A stretch of DNA of 64,000 nt, taken from assembly GCA_020832415.1 (NCBI GenBank), contig JAFIES010000032.1, positions 20,568 to 84,567 on the forward strand, read 5' to 3'. Source of the DNA: Balneolaceae bacterium (lineage in GTDB: Bacteria > Bacteroidota > Rhodothermia > Balneolales > Balneolaceae). The position numbers and the translations under genes are program-made. The notes under the pieces were generated by a model. That model saw only the letters and a list, made by a program, of their open reading frames with translations, made no database searches and was not told where the DNA came from. Shown here piece by piece: positions 1,840 to 54,944 of this stretch; position 1 is the stretch's first letter; every line of letters begins with the position of its first letter.

Positions 1840-3024
1840 CTATCTGTTCAGGGCAAAAGCCAGATCATCCGGATCCACCTCAGAGGGTGGTTCATCCAGA
1901 ATTTCCGGTGAGAATACCCCAACAGCCCAGAGGAAAAACCGGGCTTCATCCGGATTGTTTTCTCTGTTCCATTCGTATAGTGCAAAGTAACCGAGTGCTA
2001 CTTGCTCTCTTTCAAATTCATTGAGATTTTCGGGACTTGAAATAACGGGAATATCAAGATCAGCTACGGCCGGAAGCTGATTTGGATTGGTAATGATATT
2101 ACCGTTTAACTGATATATGAGTGGCCAAAGGTATGGATTGCCGAGTCTTGACTCAGCAATTGTCCAAAGTGATTCACCGGGTTCAACCGTATAATTTTCC
2201 GTCTGAAATTCTGTTTGTGGCTCGGGTGGGGGTGGTTCGGGATCATCTGCAGCATCAGTTGCTGTTGAAACATCATCAGGTGAAACCGGAGTTAATAGCT
2301 GTTCAGTTTGGTCAGCTGTAACGGGCTCACCTGTATCACCCATTCTTTGAAACATGAAAAAGAGAATAATAAAGGCAATAAGGGCAATAATTACCGCAGC
2401 TGCGTAAGACCATTTAAATGTCCCCGCTTTTTGAACTTCTTCTGCTACTTTTTCTTCATTTGGCATTATGGGCGGGATGATTGCAGCTGAATCCTCATCA
2501 CTCTCAGTAAGTGTAGAAGCTTCCGGAAAGTGAGGATTGTCGTGCTCAATCAAAAGTTCATCAATAGGAACCGAAGTTCTGTGCACCTCTTTAGCTTTTG
2601 CAGCAATAAAAGGAATGCCTATTTCATTGGCTGAATCTTTTGCATCGTCATTCTGATTTTCAGAATCAGTATCAGATTCATTTTCAGCTGATTTTGCATC
2701 TGCTCCACCAACTAAAGTTGATTTGAGGCTTGCAAACGGTTTGTTGACATCTTCACGGAGAGCCTTATAGGGCTTGAATACCACTTTATTCTGCCCGGGG
2801 ATTGTAATCTCTTCACCGGTTTGGGGATTTGTGCCGGGACGTTCGTTCATCCACCGAAGTTCAAATTTCCCGAAGCCTGATATACTTACCGAGCCGCTTT
2901 TTTTCAGACCTCCCTCAATAATCTGCACCAGCTCATGAATAAAACTGTTGGCAGAACTTTGGCTCTGGTTCGATTGCCTGGAAATAAGCTCGACCAGCTC
3001 TTTAAAGGTGATTTTTTCACTCAT
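1840..3024 (-). CDS. HU-family DNA-binding domain protein with transmembrane helix and LysM domain
   Basis: N-term HU fold (ITFKELVELIS...SVSISGFGKFELRWMNERPGTNPQTGEEITIPGQNKVVFKPYKALRE); TM helix YAAAVIIALIAFIILFFMF; C-term LysM (YTVEPGESLWTIAESRLGNPYLWPLIYQLN). Confidence 0.85.
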   Translation of the reverse strand: MSEKITFKELVELISRQSNQSQSSANSFIHELVQIIEGGLKKSGSVSISGFGKFELRWMNERPGTNPQTGEEITIPGQNKVVFKPYKALREDVNKPFASLKSTLVGGADAKSAENESDTDSENQNDDAKDSANEIGIPFIAAKAKEVHRTSVPIDELLIEHDNPHFPEASTLTESDEDSAAIIPPIMPNEEKVAEEVQKAGTFKWSYAAAVIIALIAFIILFFMFQRMGDTGEPVTADQTEQLLTPVSPDDVSTATDAADDPEPPPPEPQTEFQTENYTVEPGESLWTIAESRLGNPYLWPLIYQLNGNIITNPNQLPAVADLDIPVISSPENLNEFEREQVALGYFALYEWNRENNPDEARFFLWAVGVFSPEILDEPPSEVDPDDLAFALNR

Positions 3025-3310
3025 CGCCGGATTCCAAGAACTTTACTTCCTCTTTGAGCCCTGCAGCGGGGCTAAATTCCACCACTCGTTTTGGTGGAAC
3101 CATTATGTACGCATCATAATGAGGATTGTACACTTTTTTCTGCTCGTTTACTTTGGTGCTGAATGTGCCAAGATCTGGTATAGACACACCTTTTCCCTCA
3201 CTGAGTTTGTCAGTTAAAACAGTTACGGTATCATCAAGAATCTCTTTGGTTCTTGTTTTGGTGTTACCGGTCTGCTCGGAAAGTTTATCTATGAGCTGTT
3301 TGTAATTCAT
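3017..3310 (-). CDS. HU-family DNA-binding protein (second paralog)
   Basis: MNYKQLIDKLSEQTGNTKTRTKEILDDTVTVLTDKLSEGKGVSIPDLGTFSTKVNEQKKVYNP. Start set at ATG 3310 rather than the track's 3586 because the upstream extension is low complexity. Overlaps the HU-LysM gene by 8 nt. Confidence 0.8.
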   Translation of the reverse strand: MNYKQLIDKLSEQTGNTKTRTKEILDDTVTVLTDKLSEGKGVSIPDLGTFSTKVNEQKKVYNPHYDAYIMVPPKRVVEFSPAAGLKEEVKFLESGDE

Positions 3311-3545
3311 AACTAAAGTTATAACAATATTTAGTAATAAAAGAAATATTTGCCTGAAAAGCATAACAATCAATATCGAGAGTTTAAAACTTTGGGTATT
3401 CATTTTATGAAGCAGCCAAAATCTTGCATTCTGATAAGTACAATGCAAATACCAATTAATTAATAACATATTCATAAATTTATTTATATTAAACCTCCAG
3501 TAGAAAGCAAAGAGACGCCAATCCATATTCATTTTTAGAGACAAG

Positions 3546-3953
3546 ATGAAACAGTTACAGAGCAGCCGGATTTTACAAGAGTACAAGGAGGGGCTTTCGA
3601 GGAATATTGAAAATTGCTCTCCTCAGGTAAAAAATGTTGTCAATTATATTCATGAACATCTGTTTAATGAAGAGTTAACTGTATCAAGTATACAGCAAGC
3701 TTGTAACATACACCGGAAAAGTTTTTCAAGTAGGTTTAAACTTTATATGGGACGTAGTCCATGTGAGTACTACATCCATCATCGTATCGAAGCGGTTAAA
3801 TTATTGCTCTTACAGAATGAATTGACAATAACTGAAACAGGGTTACTGGTAGGTTTTTCCTCACTTTCTGCTTTTTGCAATACCTTTAAGCGAAAGGAAG
3901 GAATAAAACCCTCTGAGTGGAGACTGAGAAACGGGGGGGGTAAAAATATTTGA
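3546..3953 (+). CDS. AraC-type helix-turn-helix protein without an obvious sensor domain
   Basis: YIHEHLFNEELTVSSIQQACNIHRKSFSSRFKLYMGRSPCEYYIHHRIEAVKLLLLQ...GFSSLSAFCNTFKRKEGIKPSEWR: HTH_18 pattern. Confidence 0.85.
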   Translation: MKQLQSSRILQEYKEGLSRNIENCSPQVKNVVNYIHEHLFNEELTVSSIQQACNIHRKSFSSRFKLYMGRSPCEYYIHHRIEAVKLLLLQNELTITETGLLVGFSSLSAFCNTFKRKEGIKPSEWRLRNGGGKNI

Positions 3954-4101
3954 GCTTATGGGGAGGAGTAAATATAAGGAGGAATTTAAGGGTGAATATA
4001 AATTAATTAATAATGAATGTGTTTATAGTTTATAATAAATCACATTCTTAAAGTTTTAATTTTATTTGTGATAAAATCCTAACAGTATAAAATACTTAGT
4101 T

Positions 4102-4434
4102 ATGAGAAAACTAAAAATAACCTTACTAATTGTCCTGCCTTTAATATTTTTTATAATTGGTTCAGTTTCAGTGGACACAGAATTATTAGATAATAACACT
4201 TCTGAAGAAAACGTAACAATGGTTTGTGAACAAATAATGTATAACATAGCTGGTACACTAACACTTTTTAATGATGATTGTGCATCAGGTGGGCAAGGAT
4301 CTTCATCTTGTTCGAGTTCTTCTTCTTCAGCTAGCTGTGATGTTGAATGTAATGATGGATATTATTCGTGTTGCGATTCATGGGGATATAGTTGTACTTG
4401 TAAAGTCTCAACAGAGCCAGAAGAAAGTGGATAA
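4102..4434 (+). CDS. Secreted Ser/Cys-rich small protein, NVEALA-like
   Basis: Signal/TM-like N-terminus MRKLKITLLIVLPLIFFIIGS; C-terminus GGQGSSSCSSSSSSASCDVECNDGYYSCCDSWGYSCTCK resembles the GxGSSSC...CxVxCxxGYYxCC...CxC pattern of Bacteroidetes NVEALA peptides. Nine Cys. Confidence 0.65.
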   Translation: MRKLKITLLIVLPLIFFIIGSVSVDTELLDNNTSEENVTMVCEQIMYNIAGTLTLFNDDCASGGQGSSSCSSSSSSASCDVECNDGYYSCCDSWGYSCTCKVSTEPEESG

Positions 4435-4462
4435 AGCAACCTGTTTAATTACAGCATCATTA

Positions 4463-4496
4463 AAACTACACAGTGTTATACTACTCTGTGTAGTTT
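4463..4496 (+). terminator. Strong hairpin between small-protein gene and downstream lipoprotein gene
   Basis: AAACTACACAG-tgttatactact-CTGTGTAGTTT: perfect 11-bp stem, 12-nt loop, followed by AT-rich tract (short T-run). Confidence 0.6.
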
Positions 4497-4557
4497 ATTA
4501 TCGTATAATTTTATTACGGTTAAAAGTTTTGGATTAATGTAATATTATTCAATTGTT

Positions 4558-5637
4558 TTGTTAAATAACTGTTTTTTTATAACAATACCTCTGTTCCTTT
4601 TGATTCTTTTATCAGGTTGTAGAGATGATAGCTTTGTTACTTTTGAGAACAAAGACCTAACATGTGATGAATACCTGAGTGATTATTTTATATTCATAGA
4701 TGATACATACGAAATTGATCTGAGTAGACTGAATAACATTTATATATATAAGGATAAGATATACATGTCTGTCCCTCAAGGGGGTGAAATTGTAGCTTAT
4801 AATTTCAACACAGAAGAATTTACAACCATTGGGGAAACCGGTACCGGCCCATTTGAGTTTTTAACAACATCAATAACTGTTGCTGGGAATACTATGTACA
4901 TATATGACCTGTCTTTATCAAAAATTGTATCATATGATCTTGAACAAGAGAAATTTATTTCAGAACAGGTACTTGATGACAGCTACTCGGGAATTCTTAT
5001 GCATGCGGATTCCAGTTCTATTTTTTTATATACCATAAACAGAGTATCGAATGATGGATACGAACAGCGTGTGGTTTCATTCCGGGATGACTTTCAAATG
5101 ATTGATACCGTATTCACTTCAGTGAGCAATAATTTCATCAGGCATTTTGAAGATGGAAGAGACTTTGCAGGGCAGTTTCAACTGTTTTCAAACAAAATAC
5201 CTACGTTTATAGGTGAAGAGTTGTACCTGTTTGATAATACTTCATTCAGATACTCTAAAAATAATAAACTGGATGACGATTATGCTGAAGTCAACTTTAG
5301 TTACAATCCGGATTATGAGTTTTATATCGAAACGATGAGAGAACGTTATAGTACGAGTTCAAATCTGTCTGTTTATTTTTTTAATCAAGCGCTGAAAAAT
5401 GAAACAAGAGCCTTTGAGGCATTATTCAGCGAAGTTCTTACAAGTGAAACACATCTTTTATTTAGTCTGTTTGCAACGGATAAAAAAGCATTTCTTATTA
5501 AAGATCTGAAAAACCAGGACTTAAAAATACTTTGTGCCGATCTTAACTATCAACCTGTACGAATGAAAGAATCAAGAATATATTGGGTAGCACATAATGA
5601 CAGTTATGAATATCAATTGATTAAAACCGAAATCTAA
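4558..5637 (+). CDS. 6-bladed beta-propeller lipoprotein (TolB-like)
   Basis: Lipobox LLILLSGC; propeller-like repeats (IYKDKIYMSVPQGGEIVAYNFNTEEFTTIGETGTGPFEF...). TTG start in the track. Confidence 0.65.
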   Translation: MLNNCFFITIPLFLLILLSGCRDDSFVTFENKDLTCDEYLSDYFIFIDDTYEIDLSRLNNIYIYKDKIYMSVPQGGEIVAYNFNTEEFTTIGETGTGPFEFLTTSITVAGNTMYIYDLSLSKIVSYDLEQEKFISEQVLDDSYSGILMHADSSSIFLYTINRVSNDGYEQRVVSFRDDFQMIDTVFTSVSNNFIRHFEDGRDFAGQFQLFSNKIPTFIGEELYLFDNTSFRYSKNNKLDDDYAEVNFSYNPDYEFYIETMRERYSTSSNLSVYFFNQALKNETRAFEALFSEVLTSETHLLFSLFATDKKAFLIKDLKNQDLKILCADLNYQPVRMKESRIYWVAHNDSYEYQLIKTEI

Positions 5638-5643
5638 AATACT

Positions 5644-6081
5644 ATGGATAAAATATTTATAATTATTCTGTTCTTTATTCAATTTCAAACGAATCTTCAA
5701 TATTCTGACAATACAAAATCGGATACAATTGTTGATGAGTTTTTAATTCATTTTGAATTGACGAATGATGATGAAATCTCTTTAACCTGTATTGATGGGT
5801 GCGCATGGATGTCTTTAAAATTCACTTGTAGTACCGGTATCTGTGAACAAAGAATAAATCAGTACGGTATGGCAGATACAAATGATGATCAAAACAGGAT
5901 AAGCCGGGATGCCGGATCTTACGATCTTGCCAATTTCACTATTTTGATATCTCGTACAGAACAGGAATTCTATTTAGAATGTAATGAAGGGTGTGCCTGG
6001 TCTGTATTGAACTTTAACTTATCTGATACAGGGCATAAACGATCTGTTAATCAAATGGGAACGACCGTCTTGAATGAGTAA
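5644..6081 (+). CDS. Secreted hypothetical protein with duplicated C-x2-GCAW motif
   Basis: ISLTCIDGCAWMSLKFTC...INQYGM and FYLECNEGCAWSVLNFNL...VNQMGT; starts 6 nt after the propeller gene stop. Confidence 0.65.
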   Translation: MDKIFIIILFFIQFQTNLQYSDNTKSDTIVDEFLIHFELTNDDEISLTCIDGCAWMSLKFTCSTGICEQRINQYGMADTNDDQNRISRDAGSYDLANFTILISRTEQEFYLECNEGCAWSVLNFNLSDTGHKRSVNQMGTTVLNE

Positions 6082-6357
6082 TACTGTAGTGGTTAAGTTT
6101 AATAGGACAGCATTTTTGGTTTTCTTCGTTTGATCTTAATCTACTTCAAACCAATCATAAAAACTCGGTTTATTATCTCCATCTAAAATCCACGGGAAAA
6201 CGCTATGATCAATGGTTTAGCCAACCTTGTAAATAAAGCATGCAATCTCGTAATACAGAGCATTTTGCCCTGTCAGGAAAAACTCTGTTAGGCTTAGTCA
6301 GTCATAGATCGAAATCCGACTATATGGAGATATTGCTGTACCCGGTAGAAAACTGAA

Positions 6358-6612
6358 ATGGTTAAGAGTTATAATATTTCAACTTTTCCAGGATTAAAAG
6401 CACAGGATGATTTTGAGGTACCCATTCTTCTGAAAATCGGTGCCAAGATATCAACTAACAAGATCTTGAAAGCAGGGCCTGAAGTACTTCACTACGGAAG
6501 AAATTTTTCTGAAATTAGCAAAATTTTATACACCTTGATTGGTAATGATTTTTATGTAAAAGAGCTCGAAATCGAGGAGATGCTTAGCGGCCATATAGCG
6601 GTTATCGGCTGA
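6358..6612 (+). CDS. Small hypothetical ORF
   Basis: 84-aa ORF, no recognised domain; may be a remnant. Confidence 0.25.
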   Translation: MVKSYNISTFPGLKAQDDFEVPILLKIGAKISTNKILKAGPEVLHYGRNFSEISKILYTLIGNDFYVKELEIEEMLSGHIAVIG

Positions 6613-6911
6613 AATTTCGTGCATGGATTGAATCCTGAACATGCTGCTAATAAATCGATGTATTTATGCCATCTGTAAGTATAGATAATATAACTCTTTA
6701 ATGTCCTTTCGATCTAAAACACAGTATGAGTAGAAGGCAACTTAAGGCTATTGTTCATTGTAGTGTGATCAAATACATAAAAAAAGAAAACAACGGATAG
6801 TTAAACTGTAGTTTGACGCTACCAATCGTATGTTGCATCATTATGATATTGGAGCAGGAACCCGTATTTTTAGAGTCTGTAACATTTTTTAAGATATTTG
6901 AAACACATTTA

Positions 6912-7616
6912 ATGAGTAAAGAAGAAAAAAACAGAACCGGAACTGTCGAAGTAGATCCGGAAATAGTTGAAGAAATTGGAGATAACCATTTAGCCACTTC
7001 AATTGATACACCGTTGAGAACTGACGCTTTTGACCTGAGTGACGGGGAAAAAATCAAGAGAATTGAAAAACACTTCTCAGAAATTATGCATGTTCTCGGG
7101 TTAGATTTGAACGACCAGAGTTTACAGGGAACACCTCACAGAGTTGCTAAGATGTATGTGAAGGAGATCTTTAGCGGATTAAACCCGGAGAATAAACCCA
7201 AAGCCAGTAAATTCGATAATAAGTTCGACTACAACGACATGGTTGTGGTTAAAAATATCGATGTTACATCATTTTGTGAACATCATTTTCTGCCATTTTT
7301 GGGCAAAGCTCATGTAGCCTATGTCAGCTCCGGTAATGTTATCGGTCTCTCAAAAATAAACCGGATTGTGGAGTACTACTCCAGCCGGCCGCAAGTGCAG
7401 GAGCGTTTAACCCTGCAGATTGCTGAAGAATTAAAGAAAACCATGCAGACAGAAGATGTGGCGGTTTTTATAGAGAGCAAGCATCTGTGTGTATCAACCC
7501 GTGGTATTAAAGATAAGCAGAGCAGCACGGTTACCGTAGAATACAGCGGCATTTTTGAAGAAGAGACTACAAAACAAAAGTTTATTGACTACATCCGTGC
7601 TGAAACGGAAATGTAG
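6912..7616 (+). CDS. folE: GTP cyclohydrolase I
   Basis: GTPHRVAKMYVKEIFSGL, FCEHHFLPFLGKAHVAYVSSGNVIGLSKINRIVEYYSSRPQVQERLT, SKHLCVSTRGIK. Start placed at ATG 6912 (MSKEEKN). Confidence 0.95.
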   Translation: MSKEEKNRTGTVEVDPEIVEEIGDNHLATSIDTPLRTDAFDLSDGEKIKRIEKHFSEIMHVLGLDLNDQSLQGTPHRVAKMYVKEIFSGLNPENKPKASKFDNKFDYNDMVVVKNIDVTSFCEHHFLPFLGKAHVAYVSSGNVIGLSKINRIVEYYSSRPQVQERLTLQIAEELKKTMQTEDVAVFIESKHLCVSTRGIKDKQSSTVTVEYSGIFEEETTKQKFIDYIRAETEM

Positions 7617-9411: not shown

Positions 9412-9506
9412 GAGGCTCGAAAGTTCCTTTATTCATCTCCATCAGCCCGGCTTGATTAAATCCACTCATTTTTTAATAAATTCAATCAAAATGTTTAAAC
9501 TGTAAT

Positions 9507-10388
9507 ATGCGTAAAAAAAGAAATAGCAGACCAGATCAATCAAGAGGCGGTAAGAAAAAGCGTCCAGTACTTAATCGTGAAAAAAACCGGGCAAAAGAGT
9601 TCTCCAACCGATCCTCAACCGCTTCCCAAAAGCAGGTTATTGAAGATGAGATACGTATAAATAAATTTATTGCCCATGCAGGGTACTGCTCTCGCAGAGA
9701 GGCCGATGAACTGATAGAAGCCGGGAAAGTAAAAGTGAACGGCAAAGTTGTTACCGAACTCGGTATGAAAATCAAACCGGCTGATAATGTAGTGGTAGAG
9801 AATCAGCGGCTGTCACTGGAACCGTTTGTCTACATTTTGCTGAATAAGGGACGTGATACCATCAGTACCACAAATGATGAGAAAGACCGAAACACTGTTC
9901 TTGATGTGGTTGAAGATGCTACCGGGCACAGAGTTTATCCTGTGGGGCGATTAGACCGAAATACAACCGGACTGATTATTCTCACGAATGATGGTGACCT
10001 TGCACACAGATTGATGCATCCCAGCTATCAGGTGAAAAAAACGTATGAAATTACTGCAAACAGGCCTTTAACCCCTGAAGAAGTTGAGCGATTACGAACG
10101 GATGTGGTTCTTGATGACGGGCCGATCAAGCCGGCTCGTGTTAAGCATGATATGTACGATCCGTCTATCGTTACCATTTCTGTCTATGAGGGCAGAAACC
10201 ATCTTATAAGGCGCATGATTGATTTTATTGGTGCAGATGTAGAGAAATTAAAACGGACACGTTATGCGGGCCTTAGTGATGAAAACCTGAGAATGGGGCG
10301 ATGGAGATATCTCAGACAGAAAGAGATCAATGATTTAAGACAACTTGTAAAACTGGAAACATTAGATTTCAACAGAGAGGAAAAATGA
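9507..10388 (+). CDS. S4-domain pseudouridine synthase (RluB/RsuA family)
   Basis: RINKFIAHAGYCSRREADELIEAGKVKVNGKVV (S4), YPVGRLDRNTTGLIILTNDGDLAHRLMHP, EGRNHLIRRM. Confidence 0.93.
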   Translation: MRKKRNSRPDQSRGGKKKRPVLNREKNRAKEFSNRSSTASQKQVIEDEIRINKFIAHAGYCSRREADELIEAGKVKVNGKVVTELGMKIKPADNVVVENQRLSLEPFVYILLNKGRDTISTTNDEKDRNTVLDVVEDATGHRVYPVGRLDRNTTGLIILTNDGDLAHRLMHPSYQVKKTYEITANRPLTPEEVERLRTDVVLDDGPIKPARVKHDMYDPSIVTISVYEGRNHLIRRMIDFIGADVEKLKRTRYAGLSDENLRMGRWRYLRQKEINDLRQLVKLETLDFNREEK

Positions 10389-11260
10389 GATTCAGCAGTG
10401 TATCCAAAACAAGTGGTCAAATTTCATCAACCGAAAATTTACCTATTCATTATGATCTTCTTGTGCCGGTGGCATCAGCCGGTACAGTGCTGCCGGTAAT
10501 TCTGTTTCTGCATGGGTTTAAAGGATTTAAAGACTGGGGTGCTTTCCCCGATGTTTATGAAGAGCTTGCCAGGGCAGGTTTTGCCGTTGTTGCATTTAAT
10601 ATGTCGCTGAATGGAGTAGGTGAGAGTATGCTTGAGTTTGATGAGCCTGAGCTGTTCAGAAGGCAAACATTAAGCCAGGATTTAAGTGATGTAGGATCCA
10701 TAATAACAGCAGTTAAGGATAAAGAAATTGCCAGTGATAAAGTAATTCTTGATACCGACAGAGTTGGAATTATCGGGCACTCCCGCGGAGGGCACACCGC
10801 TGTTACCGCTGCTGCTGAGTATGCAGAAATTCAATGTCTTGTTACATGGTCTGCCGTATCGGACTATAACGCAAGGTGGAGCAGCGAAATGAAAAAAGAT
10901 TGGGAAACAAAAGGCTTCACTGAGATAAAAAATTCAAGAACCGGAGAAATCCTTCCTCTCGATAAGATCACCTATGATGATGGTATCACAAATGCTGACA
11001 GGTTAATGGCCATTAAACGTGTTCAGGAGATCTACATCCCATCTATGTTTATTGCCGGTAAAGACGACGAAGCTGTACCCGTATCAGAGACGGAAAAACT
11101 CTACAGAAAATCACCGGCTTACGATAAAGAAATACGCCTGATTGACAATGCCGGACATACCTTTCAGGTTTCTCATCCGTTTGAAAAGAACGATTTTCCG
11201 CCTGAGTTTGAAGAGGTCATCGACTTAACAGAAGGGTGGTTTTTAGATCATCTAAAATAA
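10385..11260 (+). CDS. Alpha/beta hydrolase (dienelactone-hydrolase-like)
   Basis: LPVILFLHGFKGFKDWGAF, GIIGHSRGGHTAVTAA (GxSxG), C-terminal DNAGHTF His. Confidence 0.85.
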   Translation: MRFSSVSKTSGQISSTENLPIHYDLLVPVASAGTVLPVILFLHGFKGFKDWGAFPDVYEELARAGFAVVAFNMSLNGVGESMLEFDEPELFRRQTLSQDLSDVGSIITAVKDKEIASDKVILDTDRVGIIGHSRGGHTAVTAAAEYAEIQCLVTWSAVSDYNARWSSEMKKDWETKGFTEIKNSRTGEILPLDKITYDDGITNADRLMAIKRVQEIYIPSMFIAGKDDEAVPVSETEKLYRKSPAYDKEIRLIDNAGHTFQVSHPFEKNDFPPEFEEVIDLTEGWFLDHLK

Positions 11261-34005: not shown

Positions 34006-34614
34006 ATGAAAGTAAGTTTTATGAAAACCTGCGTACTTTTCCCGAAAGCATTCTCATACAATTATATTGATGGTTCTGTAGCCCACTCAATGGATTCACC
34101 TACGCTGTACGAAGAGTATCTAAGTCCAAGCGATTTGGCTGGCCCAAAATTGATCAGAAAGCGAATGACATCACGAAGCATGTCTCTGATGCACAGGGAC
34201 AGGGCAGGAGTAAACCCTGTTAAGAAAAAACCTAAGATGCTTCATGTTGAAGACAGCGCACAGATTCGCTTACTTGTATCCATATTTCTGAAAAATGAGT
34301 TTGATGTTGAGAGTGTGGAAAATGGTGAGGTTGCACTAAAACAGGTTAAATCAAAACAGTATGACTTCATTTTGATGGATATTAATCTCGGAAGAGGTAT
34401 TGATGGATTTGATGTGATCAATGAAATAAGAGATCTAGAGAATTATAAGTCAACTCCAATAATCGCTCTCACAACAAATGATTATCCAAATGTGAGGGAG
34501 GCCTGCCTGAAATCTCGGGTTAATGCATACATACAAAAACCGTTTGAAAAAACATATCTCATTGGCACAATTCAGGAAATTAACAACAGATTAGAGAAAG
34601 AAAATAACGCTTAA
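34006..34614 (+). CDS. Response regulator receiver protein with ~75-aa N-terminal extension
   Basis: PKMLHVEDSAQIRLLVSIFLK...YDFILMDINLGRGIDGFDVINEIR...TPIIALTT...AYIQKPF: receiver fold, no output domain. Confidence 0.9.
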   Translation: MKVSFMKTCVLFPKAFSYNYIDGSVAHSMDSPTLYEEYLSPSDLAGPKLIRKRMTSRSMSLMHRDRAGVNPVKKKPKMLHVEDSAQIRLLVSIFLKNEFDVESVENGEVALKQVKSKQYDFILMDINLGRGIDGFDVINEIRDLENYKSTPIIALTTNDYPNVREACLKSRVNAYIQKPFEKTYLIGTIQEINNRLEKENNA

Positions 34615-34624
34615 GTCACCTACA

Positions 34625-35380
34625 ATGATCAATAACAATGACATAAAATTTTCCATTCATGAATTTCTGGAAGGTAACCTTAGCGAAAGCCAAACAGAAG
34701 AACTGTGGGCAGAACTATTAGCCAGTCCTGATGACCTTGAATATCTTGAAACATTAACTACTCTCAAATCAATGGGGCAAAATGGGGCATTTAGTTCAAT
34801 TGATGAAACACCGGTTTACTCCTTAAATAATAAAACTGAGCAAGTTCATACCGGCTTTTTTAGCAGCATTAGACCATATCTCGTTGCCGCATCTATCCTG
34901 ATTGCCGGTATGCTTGTTCTTTATAATGCATTCCCTCCGGCAAACTTCACTTCAGAAATAACACCTATTTCTGTGATTGAGTACGATATTGAAAGATCTG
35001 CTGAAGTTGCCACACAGTTTGAATATCATTTACAGCAAGCTGTTTCATACACTGCTTCAGGTGATCTTAACACTGCAATTTCTGAACTTGAAACTGCCAG
35101 AGAGCTTGAATTATCAGATTTACAGTTAACGGAACTGGAAATTGTACATGGAACTATTTATTACAACTCAGGTGAATTTGCTAATGCTTCGATTGTTTTC
35201 ACTTCAATAAGCAATAAGGATCAAATTGATACACATAATCTTGAAAAAAGCTTATGGTATCTTGCTAATTCACAAATACACTTAAATCAACTTGAAGAGG
35301 CCAGGGACAATATTAAGCAAGTAATAGAACTTGACGGGGCATTCAGCAGAATAGCAAAAAACATGATAGAGAGCTTTTGA
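34625..35380 (+). CDS. Anti-sigma-like single-TM protein with C-terminal TPRs
   Basis: N-terminal IHEFLEGNLSESQTEELWAELLASPDDLEYLETL (anti-sigma-like), TM PYLVAASILIAGMLVLYNAF, TPR-like C-terminus. Confidence 0.6.
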   Translation: MINNNDIKFSIHEFLEGNLSESQTEELWAELLASPDDLEYLETLTTLKSMGQNGAFSSIDETPVYSLNNKTEQVHTGFFSSIRPYLVAASILIAGMLVLYNAFPPANFTSEITPISVIEYDIERSAEVATQFEYHLQQAVSYTASGDLNTAISELETARELELSDLQLTELEIVHGTIYYNSGEFANASIVFTSISNKDQIDTHNLEKSLWYLANSQIHLNQLEEARDNIKQVIELDGAFSRIAKNMIESF

Positions 35381-35452
35381 CAGTTCAACTTTGTCTGGCA
35401 TATTTAATTGAAATTGACTGAAGACAAGTTTAATACAATTATCCAAAGACAA

Positions 35453-35484
35453 TACTTCAGCTATTGCTCACCTGAGCTGAAGTA
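35453..35484. terminator. Hairpin downstream of the TPR protein
   Basis: TACTTCAGCT-attgctcacctg-AGCTGAAGTA perfect 10-bp stem; no good T-run. Confidence 0.4.
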
Positions 35485-35760
35485 CAGATTATGAGAAGAT
35501 TATTCATTTGGCTTCGAGATATCAATGATGGAACGATATTGTAAGTACAATGAAAATATAGTAGAGTTAAAGGAAAGTATGCATTTGATTGATTGAACTC
35601 CTATTGAAGCCGCTAATTTGTTAAATACATAGCGAAAATTGAGCTAAGACACATCTCATCTGATTCCAAAACCAAGGGAAGGCATGCTAATAGTTGGCTA
35701 GGTTACCCAAGGGCTGATAAGAGGAGAGCAATGATTGATTATACAATATCATTTTTTACT

Positions 35761-38700
35761 CTAAGTGCTTTTCAGGTCATTTTTATTACCCAAAATTACA
35801 ATAACACTGCTGCCAATAATAATTACAAAGCCAAGAGACAGAAAGAATATTGCGGTAAAATGATTTTGGCGGGGAAGTGGTGAACTAATATTTCCATATA
35901 GTACAAATGACCCCCATAAATAGGGATCACTATTGGTGTTGTTTAAGTAAGTAAGCCTCGCCTGCCTGAGAGATTCAGCTTTATTCTCACCACTATTTAG
36001 AGATCGGTAAAAGTTAACAGATATTTCGGATGCGGTCTGATCGCGTACAGGCCATAAGTTCATCGATAAACTTTTTGCACCGGCAAATGAGAAAGCCCTG
36101 GAAAATCCAAGTACACCTGAACCCTGCAGATATCCACCGGCACCGGATTCACAAGAACTGAGAAAGATCAGGTCTGCATTTAAATTCATATCGAATAGTT
36201 CGTAGGCATGAATTATGCCATCATATTCGGCGGAAACTTCACCTTTGCTATCATCTGCATAAAGATAAAGTGTGGAGAAAAGCGGGTTTTCATCATTCAC
36301 TTTACTATGAGTTGCTAAATGTAATATTCTGCTGTTTCCGGCAATATTTCTGAAATTTCGTTCTGTGCTTTCATTTCCAATGAAAAAAGTTTTCTTCGAA
36401 AATGCATCAAGTTGTTCGGAACTTTCTACGATCTCTTTTGAGCTGAAGGGCAGGTTTTGGAGAAATGGATGTCCTGCTTCCTGAAAGTTTTCTATGCCAA
36501 ATCCAACCATGTCGTATTCAAAATTACTTTGGCCGGTGTCAGTACCCTGAATGAGTTCAGTGAGTGAGTTTACATAGCTCACGCTGTATTCTTCTATTAG
36601 ATACCTGGCAGATCCATAGCTATGGGGAGTATTTGCCTTTTGCAGCGGCAAGATTTCCAGGGGCAATCTGTAAAACTCTGCGTCAGGGATCATATAAATG
36701 TGTTTTATACCGTCAGGGATGCCATCTTCAAAGAATGTTGTGTAAATATCGTACAGTTTATGCAGATCCGTAGTTCTGTAACCTAAGGTATTAAGGCCAC
36801 TTCGAAGTACATCCAAGTGATTCTCATCGGCGGGATATACATTCATTGTGATTCCAGATCGGGTGATTGAAAATCGGTAAATGTCATCTTCAAAGACTGA
36901 AAAATAGAAGAGTATTTGATCTGACCTCAAAGTTCTACGAAGATTGCCGAAAAGTTGGTCATAGTGGCGTTCACTGTAATTTGGAAAAGCCTGGTTTTGA
37001 AGTCTGTTTCGTTCTGAAATGGCATTGAGCAACTCATTCCCGAGGTAAACTCTCTGTTCACCGGTGGCCGTTTGATATCTGCTTCGAAGTTGTTGAATTC
37101 TTGTGCTGATGTTATAGTCTTCAATTAACTGCTCTTCGGATAGGACTTTGGATTTCAAAAGCGGGTTATTATAAAAACCGGATCTGGAGATATTACGCAA
37201 TTCACCAATTTTTGAAAGTGCTCTTTGGTATTGCCCGGTTTCATACATAAGAGTAGTATGAAGTTTAAAGGCTTCAGTAAACTCATTGTCCATTCTCATA
37301 TGGCCTGTTTGCTGATCAGAACTTTCTCTGAGGTGATCGGTAATATCTGATATCATTGGTGCAGAGAGGCTAATAGCATCTTGAACCTTATTTTTATTCT
37401 GTAGAAGCCGTACTTTAATATTGTTAGCAAGTACTCTGATATTAAAGTACTGTGGCAAATAATCTTCCTCACTGAATTGAAAAAGTAATTGCTCTGCTTC
37501 GTCAAATCGCCCATCTAAAGTCAACATATTCGCGTAACGAATAACTGCTTGTACAAAACTTCTTGAATCTTCCCTTGACGAGGATAATTCCATGGCTTTA
37601 TTAAAGTACTCTTCTGATTTGGCCCATTTTTCCATTAAGAGATAAGTGTCACCAATCTCAACATAGCTCATGAAATTATGCTGATAGTTATTGGTCTCAA
37701 TTGATAAATCAAGAGCATCAAAATAGTACTCTAATGCTTTTTCATAATCTGATTCTACAGTTCTTTTATAAATACCAAGTGAAATGTGGATAGAGGCAAT
37801 ATCTGTAGTTAGCTCATTCACTGTAGCAATTTGTAATGCCTGGCTAAGGTAGTTAAAGGCAAGATCTGTATCGTTTTGGCGCCTGTAGTAGATGAAAAGA
37901 TTTCGTAGAATTGATAATTGCTGACTGTAGTTTTCTTCCTGAGAGGCAATATCAAAGGCATTTAATTGAAATTGAACGTACCTGTCAAACTGGCCCGAGT
38001 TTAAGTAACTTATCGCTAAATTATTGAAGAGAGCCGCTTGATAGCGGGAATCTAGAACAGAATAATCCTGCTCAAATACACTTTCAAATTCTCTAAGAGA
38101 TGCATTCACATTACCTACCCTGAAGAGCAGAAGGGCATAGTCCATTTTGATAGATAGATAATCGTTTAAGTCTCCAATTGTTTTTGAAATGGGTTGAAGA
38201 ATTTCAAGATTTATTTTGATAGAATGTGAGTAATATCCAAGTACGCGTGTTGCATACGAAATGGTGTCAAAAAGGCTTAAAGTGAAAAATGAATCAGGAA
38301 AAGGGTGGCTGTTTGCTAAATCCATTCCAAGTTCATAGACCATTTGAAAGTTATCTAACCTATCGTATCCATAAATGAGAGCTTGTGTTTTAATACTTCC
38401 AGTGACAGGATCTGCTTCAATAACCTCATGCAGATTATCATGCCAATAATCCAAAAGTGCTTTTGCTTCCTGTTCAAGTTCCTGGGGAATTTGAGAGCCT
38501 ATAAATAAATAAATATCATCAACAGTAAATGGCCTGATTTCATAATAGGCTGGCTGGATTGAACTTTTTAGTAATTTATTTGCAACATCGGGGATAAGTT
38601 CAAATATTTCATTCTCTGATTCAAAGAAGGAAATAATTTTTTCTCTTTGAAATCTGCTAGCTTCATGTAACGAATAGTTTAGATAAGTTGGATTTTGAGT

Positions 38701-38919
38701 ATCTAAATACAGTTCAAATAACATTTGACTGGTAACGTCAAAAACTGATTGTCCTGAAACAGCAGCTTTCTCATTTGCTTCATCTAAAACACGCAACCAA
38801 TTTTCAAATATCTCAATTTGATTTTTAGGTTCTGAAGTGTCAGCAAAATCACCTTGAGGTTCTTGTGCCGTACTAATAACAAATGAAAATAATAATGCAA
38901 TTTTTGCAATTATGAACAT
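35761..38919 (-). CDS. TPR-CHAT domain (caspase-like) protein, exported with C-terminal TM
   Basis: Signal peptide, many TPRs, CHAT: RILHLATHSKVNDENPLFSTLYLY (His) and LIFLSSCESGAGGYLQGSGVLGFSRAFSFAGAKSLSMNLWPVRD (Cys), DPYLWGSFVLYG; C-term TM FFLSLGFVIIIGSSVIVIL. Confidence 0.9.
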   Translation of the reverse strand: MFIIAKIALLFSFVISTAQEPQGDFADTSEPKNQIEIFENWLRVLDEANEKAAVSGQSVFDVTSQMLFELYLDTQNPTYLNYSLHEASRFQREKIISFFESENEIFELIPDVANKLLKSSIQPAYYEIRPFTVDDIYLFIGSQIPQELEQEAKALLDYWHDNLHEVIEADPVTGSIKTQALIYGYDRLDNFQMVYELGMDLANSHPFPDSFFTLSLFDTISYATRVLGYYSHSIKINLEILQPISKTIGDLNDYLSIKMDYALLLFRVGNVNASLREFESVFEQDYSVLDSRYQAALFNNLAISYLNSGQFDRYVQFQLNAFDIASQEENYSQQLSILRNLFIYYRRQNDTDLAFNYLSQALQIATVNELTTDIASIHISLGIYKRTVESDYEKALEYYFDALDLSIETNNYQHNFMSYVEIGDTYLLMEKWAKSEEYFNKAMELSSSREDSRSFVQAVIRYANMLTLDGRFDEAEQLLFQFSEEDYLPQYFNIRVLANNIKVRLLQNKNKVQDAISLSAPMISDITDHLRESSDQQTGHMRMDNEFTEAFKLHTTLMYETGQYQRALSKIGELRNISRSGFYNNPLLKSKVLSEEQLIEDYNISTRIQQLRSRYQTATGEQRVYLGNELLNAISERNRLQNQAFPNYSERHYDQLFGNLRRTLRSDQILFYFSVFEDDIYRFSITRSGITMNVYPADENHLDVLRSGLNTLGYRTTDLHKLYDIYTTFFEDGIPDGIKHIYMIPDAEFYRLPLEILPLQKANTPHSYGSARYLIEEYSVSYVNSLTELIQGTDTGQSNFEYDMVGFGIENFQEAGHPFLQNLPFSSKEIVESSEQLDAFSKKTFFIGNESTERNFRNIAGNSRILHLATHSKVNDENPLFSTLYLYADDSKGEVSAEYDGIIHAYELFDMNLNADLIFLSSCESGAGGYLQGSGVLGFSRAFSFAGAKSLSMNLWPVRDQTASEISVNFYRSLNSGENKAESLRQARLTYLNNTNSDPYLWGSFVLYGNISSPLPRQNHFTAIFFLSLGFVIIIGSSVIVILGNKNDLKST

Positions 38920-38988
38920 TGCGCAGATGGTTGCTTATAAGTTAATATCATTAACGCAACATAATAATTTGCAAGATGTATAGAAATA

Positions 38989-39204
38989 TCAATATCTATC
39001 CTGGTAACGGTCGCGTGGTCGCACGTCAATCATATCTTCCTGATCACCGCCCCGGATAAAATCAGGTGCTTCCATATTGATGATCTGTGTGTCGTCTGCG
39101 TTGAACTGAGTATCGGTATCTTCGAGAGTGGCGTCGGTAAGTCCAGCGCAGCCTGCTAAGAGTGTAAAGAAGAGAGCTGTGAGAGTAAGTTTGAGAGTTT
39201 TCAT
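38989..39204 (-). CDS. Small lipoprotein, hypothetical
   Basis: MKTLKLTLTALFFTLLAGCAG lipobox; 71 aa acidic. Confidence 0.65.
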   Translation of the reverse strand: MKTLKLTLTALFFTLLAGCAGLTDATLEDTDTQFNADDTQIINMEAPDFIRGGDQEDMIDVRPRDRYQDRY

Positions 39205-39487
39205 AATGAGTCGAGTTTTTAATTGTTGTTGATAATATTGAGTTTGTAAATAATGAGTGTCAGAGTTATTGCATAGTTTACGTTAGTATGATGCTTGAGA
39301 AAGCAAAATGTTACAATAATTTATAAAATCTAATCATATACATTAAAAATATTTAATATTGATTAAATGTAATATACAAACATAAAATAAATTTAATATT
39401 TTTGCCTATAAATTTTTGATTCGTATGTTCCAAGTGAAATTTTTTTAATCTTCAGACAATCCAAGTAGAAAAGAAGGTCGCTGCTTT

Positions 39488-40063
39488 TTGGAAAACAAAA
39501 AATTATCTGCCAGGAATTTTTATGAGTTGGTTAAATCGGGCAATGATTCTGAGATAAATAGAATATCCAGAATAATGGTCAGTAGAATGGCTCTCTATTT
39601 AAGATCGGTTATGCGCGTTGAAGATGAGCTTGCAATGGATTGTGCACAGCAAGCTTTTGAAAACTTTTATGAAAAAATTCTTGAAGATTCCCTGACTGAC
39701 ATTGATAACATTTTTGGATATTTAATTATATCCGTAAAAAATGAATATCTGATGAGATTACGGAGGGAAAAGTTTGAAGTACCGAGTGATTATGCAATGT
39801 TCATTCCCATTCAGGATACTTCTTCAGAAAATATTTTTGAGGTATTGTACAGTAAAGAGAGAGAAAAGAAGCTTGAAAAATGCATTCGTGAATTGAAATT
39901 TAAAAACAGGAAATTTTTTAAGCTGGTTCTTGAGTATATCAATGAAAATGATAAGGAGACAGCTAAGATGATTGGAATGAGCTATTCAAATTTCAGAACT
40001 AAAAAATCAAGAATTATTGATGCTCTAAAAGAATGCGTAAAAAACTCGAACGTTGTCAATTAG
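39488..40063 (+). CDS. ECF-like RNA polymerase sigma factor
   Basis: DCAQQAFENFYEKIL...DIDNIFGYLIISVKNEYLMRLRREK (region 2) and ...ENDKETAKMIGMSYSNFRTKKSRIIDALKE (region 4 HTH). TTG start in track. Confidence 0.75.
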   Translation: MENKKLSARNFYELVKSGNDSEINRISRIMVSRMALYLRSVMRVEDELAMDCAQQAFENFYEKILEDSLTDIDNIFGYLIISVKNEYLMRLRREKFEVPSDYAMFIPIQDTSSENIFEVLYSKEREKKLEKCIRELKFKNRKFFKLVLEYINENDKETAKMIGMSYSNFRTKKSRIIDALKECVKNSNVVN

Positions 40064-53793: not shown

Positions 53794-54944
53794 ATGAAAG
53801 CTCTGAAATATCTGATCATTTTTATTCTTTTGGCTGTGCCACTTTTCTTGTGGGGTTCGGGTTATTTTAACAATTCTGAATCAGCTCTACCGCCACTTCA
53901 TACCGAAACCGTTGACACGGGAGAGGTATCACAACGTGTTGTTGCTCATGGTTCGCTTCAGCCGGTTCAAAAAGTTACTGTTGGCAGCCAGGTGAGCGGC
54001 ATCATCAATGAACTGTTTGTTGATTTTAACAGTATGGTTACCAGGGGGCAGGTGATTGCACAAATCGATCCGTCAACATTTGAGGCAGAAGTAAGTTCAG
54101 CCCAGGCAGAACTTGAATCAGCCGAAGCGGGACTGGAACTCGCACGGATGCAGTGGCAGCGTGTTCAGGAACTAAGGGAACGGCAATTTCTCTCACCACA
54201 GGAAGCTGAACAGGCAAGTGCAACCCTGAGGCAGGCAGAAGCCCAGGTGAGAGTTCGTCGCCATGCCCTTGAGCGTGCACAGCGTGAGCTCGACAGAACC
54301 ACCATCACATCCCCAACAGATGGTATGGTAATATCACGTGATGTAGATGTTGGCCAGACGGTTGCTGCCAGTTTAAGTGCGCCAATACTTTTGAAATTGC
54401 TGCTGATTTAAGCCAGATGCAGATCCACGCCAATGTTTCAGAAGCAGATATTGGCACGGTGATAGAAGGCCAGCTTGTAGAATTTCAGGTGGATGCATAC
54501 AGGGGACGCATATTTCCCGGTGAAGTTGTGCAGGTGAGAAATGCCCCTCAAATGGAGGATAATGTGGTTCATTACGAAACCATTATTGCCGTAAATAATG
54601 ATGAACGTTTATTGAAACCGGGAATGACGGCAGAAGTCTCTATTATTACAGCACAGCGCCATGATGTGGTACGGGCAAGAAATACGGCACTACGGGCACG
54701 ACTTCCTGATTCCATCCGTCCGGAAGATCCGCCATCTGAAGAGGGAATGGAGGGCCGCGTCTATTTAATAGATGGTGAACGGCTTGTGGCAAAACGTGTG
54801 AAAACCGGATTGAGTGATGGTGTTTATACAGAAATTGTTGAAGGTCTTGAACCGGGAGATGAACTTGCTGTAGGGCTCTCACTGAGAGCCGGCGGGGAAG
54901 AGGAGCGTAGAAGTCTGTTTAGCGGAAGCCAGGCACAATACTGA
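53794..54944 (+). pseudogene. MacA/HlyD-like efflux periplasmic adaptor, split by a frameshift near 54386-54394
   Basis: ORF 53794-54411 (VSQRVVAHGSLQPVQKVTVGSQVSGIINELFVDFNSMVTRGQVIAQIDPSTFE...MVISRDVDVGQTVAASLSAP) and ORF 54417-54944 (MQIHANVSEADIGTVIEGQLVEFQVDAYRGR...) read as one adaptor if one T is restored in 'atacttttgaaattgctgct' (giving ...SAPILFEIAADLSQMQIHANVSEADIG). Confidence 0.8.

Follow-up and report, generated by a model that had tools for sequence, protein, structure and literature searches.

The region at positions 3546-6081 of the window (the whole stretch of DNA that was analysed, 64,000 nucleotides from a Balneolaceae bacterium) raises the question of whether a small secreted Cys-rich peptide and the propeller lipoprotein encoded after it form a functional unit and, if so, of what kind. 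A preliminary description had read the locus as a divergent relative of the NVEALA small secreted proteins of Bacteroides, with a possibly modified peptide, a propeller lipoprotein as its surface partner and a further secreted protein, GCAW, as a new component. The four consecutive plus-strand ORFs on which that reading was built were all present, with a strong hairpin between the second and the third:

3546-3953, plus strand: stand-alone AraC-type HTH protein of 135 aa, without sensor domain (HTH_18, E 1.3e-17)
4102-4434, plus strand: secreted peptide of 110 aa, with a signal-like N-terminus and a C-terminal eight-Cys domain
4463-4496, plus strand: strong hairpin in the peptide-propeller spacer, with 14-nt arms that are 93% complementary
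4558-5637, plus strand: DUF5128-type 6-bladed propeller lipoprotein of 359 aa (PF17170, E 2.2e-8, above the cut-off)
5644-6081, plus strand: GCAW protein of 145 aa, with two tandem C-x2-GC-x-W beta repeats and a signal-like N-terminus

The propeller gene starts with TTG and has no ATG start; the third secreted gene does begin 6 nt past its stop codon, as had been described. The spacer between the peptide and propeller genes (4435-4560) folds with z = -2.8. Rfam gave no match. Judged from this predicted fold, the hairpin is a possible attenuator; the corresponding spacers at two related loci, L048 and L052, are too short for such a structure.

Comparison with other members of the genus placed the genes in a larger accessory segment:

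3364-6834, no strand assigned: accessory block of ~3.5 kb in the HU-folE interval, absent from this site in four close congeners
6358-6612, plus strand: aconitate hydratase remnant of 84 aa (aconitase model, E 9e-9)

In the congeners G025, G013, G002 and G004 the gap from HU to folE is ~300 bp with nothing between, and in BLASTN alignments to these empty sites homology ends at window positions ~3363-3373 and restarts at ~6830-6840, so that the borders of the block are approximate. The block holds the AraC gene, the cassette and the aconitase remnant; no convincing terminal repeats and no integrase were found at its edges. In the more distant congeners G018, G023 and G003 the HU-folE site carries a full-length aconitate hydratase gene (651-663 aa), of which a remnant is left in the window and which is missing from the closest congeners. 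The cassette is AT-rich, as originally noted: its GC content is 32.6%, against 42% for the window. At each of the eight loci where this was measured, the cassette was 1.5 to 20 points lower in GC than the DNA around it. Low GC content and empty sites together fit horizontally moving cargo; neither the peptide nor the propeller was matched in plasmid sequences. Gain of the block at HU-folE appears the simpler reading, as no congener searched with the peptide has a strong match, although the cassette may instead have been lost from the other congeners. In either case the block would be an accessory cassette that arrived or survived in an interval where other congeners hold an aconitase gene.

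Two other features of the window were recorded. The ORFs at 53794-54411 and 54417-54944, which precede a MacB-like ABC pair, are parts of one HlyD/MacA-type membrane fusion protein split between different frames, by a frameshift or a sequencing error. The AT-rich stretch at 34006-40063 encodes a response-regulator protein, a TPR protein, a 1052-aa TPR-CHAT protease-like protein and a sigma-factor-like ORF, the last of these with no match in Pfam, and is a possible second accessory island.

Separate searches of 147 related genomes with the peptide, the propeller and the GCAW protein converged on the same places. In G099 (Balneolales bacterium RX1, of a different family of the order) the three genes are found at L052, as peptide 9464-9742, propeller 9752-10837 and GCAW 10838-11239. 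In G104 (Balneolaceae bacterium DLM2.Bin41) one contig breaks off after peptide and propeller (L048), and GCAW starts at the end of another (L057) in matching orientation; from this we infer that the two ends are adjacent. In G213, of a family outside the order, locus L102 carries on the minus strand the peptide (3942-4376), the propeller (2668-3813) and, at 2338-2556, a GCNW protein with one repeat only, which ranked first of 1017 ORFs searched with the GCAW profile (E 1.3e-6).

The gene downstream of the peptide domain could be seen at 10 loci. At 9 of these a DUF5128-type propeller was encoded downstream on the same strand, the exception being L100. These nine loci (the window, L048, L052, L049, L051, L050, L054, L099 and L102) represent four families of the class, which confirms that peptide plus propeller, with or without GCAW, recurs outside Bacteroides. 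Between peptide and propeller, L049 and L051 have another copy of the peptide domain, which is lipid-anchored. The third gene at L050, L054 and L099 encodes a secreted protein or lipoprotein of ~250 aa; those of L050 and L054 are homologous (E about 1e-36), such homology not being established for L099, and one of the ~250-aa proteins showed a borderline DUF3738 match, slightly below the cut-off. The core of the cassette is three genes: the eight-Cys peptide, the DUF5128 propeller lipoprotein and the tandem-repeat GCAW protein.

A remnant gene nearby and a high AT content are what would be expected of chance neighbours or decaying genes with no joint function. The synteny in four families of the class argues against this reading, as does selection. 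Between G104 and G106 dN/dS was 0.17-0.19 for the peptide, 0.20-0.34 for its lipid-anchored copy and 0.14 for the propeller, values that are rough owing to synonymous sites near saturation; for the nearly identical peptides of G213 and G212 it was 0.18-0.37. Selection on the cassette is purifying, with dN/dS of about 0.14-0.37. The chance of finding 7 of 8 peptides paired with a propeller was put at about 1e-16, a rough figure based on 13 propellers per ~3400 genes. Neither a lack of co-occurrence nor a Ka/Ks near 1, the outcomes that were to count against the cassette, was seen. Homologues, purifying selection and synteny together indicate more than chance, and chance proximity, extremely improbable for the locus as a whole, is refuted for peptide plus propeller; for the AraC gene it is possible.

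The peptide gave no match in Pfam and nothing above the cut-off in NCBIfam. Its tail had been described as holding eight clustered Cys residues; seven lie in the tail that was quoted, and the count of eight is reached with the preceding Cys60, the whole protein having nine. The Cys residues of the domain are at 60, 70, 79, 83, 90, 91, 98 and 100, in the pattern C-x2-GG-x-G-x3-C ... C-x6-CC ... C. In the 15-member domain alignment C60, G63, G64, G66, C70, C83, C90, C91 and C98 (window numbering) are invariant. Cys79 and Cys100 were both present in 8 sequences and both absent in 7, with no mixed case (Fisher 1.6e-4, uncorrected for relatedness), and this joint gain or loss fits a disulfide partner pair. 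The AF2 model of the peptide was weak (pLDDT 62), and disulfide pairing was unreadable from it.

Among 245 genomes of the class, 11 gave matches to the peptide profile. Some lipoproteins end in the same domain, at L049 (8334-8921), L051 (8931-9473) and L100. Profile searches of PDB sequences with peptide, GCAW and propeller returned chance matches only; an asteropsin knottin match to the PDB profile search was set aside (E 0.5). The idea of a modified peptide was not upheld beyond disulfides: no maturase was found near any copy, and among the ORFs of the window, L048, L052, L049-L051, L054, L099 and L102, where not every neighbour was profiled, no adjacent modifying enzyme was seen.

The proposed homology to NVEALA was not supported. 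The PF14055 model, which matched the positive control Bacteroides ihuae, matched neither the 110-aa peptide nor any of 11 relatives, and gave nothing above the cut-off in 147 related genomes. None of the present peptides has the N-V-E-A-L-A motif at the end of the leader. The motif is carried by the NVEALA peptides of G424, a Bacteroidales-type genome in which NVEALA genes scored above the cut-off; their tail and leader are unlike those of the present peptide, whose tail motif they lack. A tail-only profile run over 151 genomes of the NVEALA-bearing family, Bacteroides proper excluded, gave no convincing match (best E 0.008 per genome); this does not refute the shared Cys-rich tail that had been ascribed to the NVEALA proteins of Bacteroides. 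The statement that NVEALA genes adjoin propeller lipoproteins was correct in the one genome checked: in G424 a propeller lipoprotein gene comes next after all six, and the two of these propellers that were profiled match PF17170 or PF15869. Descent from an NVEALA cassette, the peptide being an NVEALA protein with a diverged leader, would account for the same gene order of small secreted Cys peptide then propeller. It would also account for one NVEALA-paired propeller being sister to those of L050, L054 and L099 (support 96/99). Against it, neither PF14055, nor the leader, nor the tails of the available NVEALA peptides match, and we regard such descent as quite improbable. From its sequences, the cassette reads as one that works like the NVEALA-propeller pairs, while membership in NVEALA itself lacks sequence support.

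The propeller scored 34.1 bits against PF17170 (DUF5128), for which the curated cut-off is 22.9. Its orthologues at L048 and L052 are 31% and 29% identical to it (tree support 100/98). The lipobox LSGC is followed by RDD, reading IPLFLLILLSGC-RDDS after the signal sequence, as judged by eye. In the LES, the surface-exposure signal of Bacteroidetes lipoproteins, a positive or polar residue and then two acidic ones come right after the Cys (PMC5080379). The window has C-R-D-D, other cassette propellers are inconsistent, and the LES signal is not established for this lineage.

A scan of a genome collection with the propeller returned just the two loci already known, in Balneolaceae and Balneolales MAGs. 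The peptide-linked propellers fell into three tree clusters, one of the window, L048 and L052, a second of L049 and L051 and a third of L050, L054 and L099, with L102 unplaced and the deeper branching unresolved. The peptide domain is therefore associated with three separate propeller clusters, and the pairing is not due to shared descent alone. The window's own genome has 13 DUF5128 matches. A Cys-rich peptide stands upstream at only 3 of ~12 propeller loci in that genome, so these propellers are not generally dedicated to peptides.

The internal duplication of the GCAW protein was clear, its halves aligning with a score of 69 (mean 22 and maximum 50 in 1000 shuffles). In the AF2 model (mean pLDDT 72) there are two beta units of five strands each, and a fold search of PDB and BFVD with this model found nothing at E <= 1e-3; by sequence there was no match in Pfam and nothing above the NCBIfam cut-off. 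GCAW is the third gene in 4 of the 9 propeller-linked loci: besides the window, homologues adjoin the propeller in G099, in G213 and, over the contig break, in G104. Its standing as a new component of the system holds for these loci, but relatives were also found in an ABC-transporter operon that is unrelated to the cassette. This operon, found in genus g24, encodes an ABC ATPase, a permease, a GntR-type regulator, a GCAW-like protein and a carboxypeptidase-regulatory-like protein, named from sequence without profiling. It recurs at L058, L059, L060, L062 and L063, not every piece being visible at every locus, and we take it to resemble the YtrA-type envelope-stress operons. The presence of GCAW relatives there would make GCAW an envelope module that serves more than one setting.

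Other small Cys-rich peptides were found beside the same propeller family. Elsewhere in the window's genome a 9-Cys secreted peptide (L123) and a 12-Cys one (L124) lie directly upstream of a propeller, the second after a thioredoxin-like gene (264-896). A further Cys-rich secreted peptide is paired with this family at L066. At L054 another such peptide (6373-6609), with a weak DUF6520 match, is accompanied by a thioredoxin-like gene (6669-7187). Thioredoxin-like gene, Cys-rich peptide and propeller make up a second recurrent type of cassette in Balneolaceae (L124 264-2508, L054 5151-7187). A filter for small secreted Cys-rich ORFs was applied as a control to 241 kb of neighbouring DNA that had been selected for other purposes. 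Of the five ORFs that passed, two belong to this cassette, two run antisense to folE, and the last is the only convincing case outside the cassette.

At L064, in G062, the peptides that precede propellers are small, Cys-rich and carry an E-M-K-x-I/V-K-G-G leader, with weak matches, below the cut-offs, to bacteriocin-like leader models and TIGR04149. Neighbouring genes in this island encode a C39-peptidase ABC exporter, HlyD, a VKOR-thioredoxin fusion and a stand-alone AraC HTH protein; the segment 561-14513 is possibly a separate bacteriocin cluster. No double-glycine leader with C39 exporter was found at the window; its peptide begins with a long hydrophobic signal, and there is no exporter nearby. 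Sec-type and GG-leader peptides beside one propeller family suggest that it partners peptides of two export routes.

The observations from which a function may be proposed are the gene set, its recurrence, selection and AT bias, the empty sites, and the propeller family beside export-and-oxidation machinery. On sequence evidence, the cassette probably encodes a disulfide-bonded peptide that is secreted and a cognate lipoprotein that binds it. The peptide would be exported by Sec and its C-terminal domain held by four disulfides; the propeller lipoprotein would be its specific envelope partner, whether binder, receptor or protector; GCAW would be the third component to be secreted, and an optional one. 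From this arrangement we infer that the peptide leaves by Sec, is oxidised outside the cytoplasm and binds the propeller directly. The peptide would then act on neighbouring cells, most likely in an interbacterial role, and the propeller lipoprotein would capture it at the producer's envelope for self-protection or display.

That the role is antagonism rather than signalling is conjecture, and the full proposal including antagonism is possible, though rather less than probable. In Bacteroidetes, GG-leader Cys peptides accompanied by a thiol oxidoreductase can be toxins, the bacteroidetocins, from loci without an immunity protein (PMC6671954). The lipoprotein-linked bacteriocin-like proteins of Treponema denticola are secreted but showed no bactericidal activity (PMC11879956). 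These precedents cut both ways. A propeller of 359 aa is large for an immunity protein, and the lipoprotein-anchored peptide domains at L049 and L051 look from their sequences to be retained rather than released; both points count against antagonism.

The AraC gene, described as a member of the locus, does lie inside the inserted block but not in the conserved core; it was tried as a core component and dropped, being absent at other loci. HTH-only regulators nevertheless stand directly upstream at the window (AraC), at L050 and L054 (LuxR/GerE type) and within the L064 island (AraC type). These would suit peptide signalling, with the oxidised peptide as a pheromone, the propeller as its receptor or sink and the upstream regulator answering to it or controlling it. 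The regulator is not conserved, however: the families differ and none was found at L048, L052 or L102. Nor is there a conserved membrane-spanning partner to relay a signal inward from the lipoprotein, and signalling is considered unlikely.

In methylamine dehydrogenase small and large subunits are held together. The peptide could similarly be a disulfide-rich subunit of a structural or enzymatic envelope complex, held by the propeller and never released. The architecture of small Cys-rich subunit plus propeller, the thioredoxin-like genes by some pairs (at L124 and L054) and the lipid-anchored domains at L049 and L051 agree with such a complex. No oxidoreductase or cytochrome was linked to the cassette, sequence searches gave no match to such subunits, and the patchy distribution is unlike that of core metabolism; little probability is given to this reading. 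A small subunit with a tryptophylquinone-type cofactor was dropped, as no Trp is conserved in the alignment of the peptide domain. Signalling and a retained complex are the live rivals.

Three things appear to be new: the domain of the peptide, GCAW as a partner, and a pairing that is modular in both peptide family and export route. Among the papers searched, none dealt with peptide-propeller pairs, NVEALA, DUF5128, propeller-bacteriocin links or cysteine-rich Balneolaceae proteins. Several Bacteroidota families of small secreted Cys-rich proteins and propeller lipoproteins have been named with no function assigned. To these the locus adds a new peptide domain with clear limits, and it shows the same lipoprotein partner kept with different peptide families and two export routes. 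A more doubtful extension would make DUF5128-type propellers the shared partner of secreted, disulfide-rich peptides throughout Bacteroidota and Balneolota, a large and modular set to which NVEALA, GG-leader, DUF6520-like and the new C-x2-GG-x-G peptides would belong. Peptide, export route and regulator would be swapped and the propeller kept, in an undescribed class of weapon or signal. Whether peptide and propeller bind could give function to many unannotated genes, gut ones included.

Among known systems, the closest in layout are the NVEALA (PF14055) and propeller (PF17170/PF15869) pairs of Bacteroidales, an arrangement already known in annotation. In both, a small secreted Cys peptide is followed on the same strand by a propeller lipoprotein. 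The present peptide differs in its Cys framework and in having neither NVEALA leader nor PF14055 match, and the present loci often add GCAW or a ~250-aa third gene.

The fold of BtuG is also a propeller. As a surface lipoprotein that captures a small ligand in Bacteroides, BtuG offers a model of ligand capture, and the likeness drawn is one of function; its ligand is vitamin B12, unlike the peptide proposed here (PMC6143338). The T. denticola pairs combine a lipoprotein gene with one for a secreted bacteriocin-like protein and form tandem sets close to a peptide exporter; the portion of the source cited reports no propeller or Cys-rich domain, and the likeness is of arrangement, not homology (PMC11879956).

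Bacteroidetocins and other GG-leader bacteriocins are likewise small, secreted and Cys-rich, with neither propeller nor immunity gene described at bacteroidetocin loci (PMC6671954). The window peptide differs from them by its Sec-type signal and by the lack of an adjoining dedicated exporter or oxidoreductase. In G062, a Balneolaceae-type genome, GG-leader peptides stand with members of this propeller family, and a C39 exporter and VKOR-thioredoxin are encoded next to them. Recurring in related bacteria with differing peptide families, the peptide-propeller pairing suggests a class of secreted-peptide systems that has been little described.
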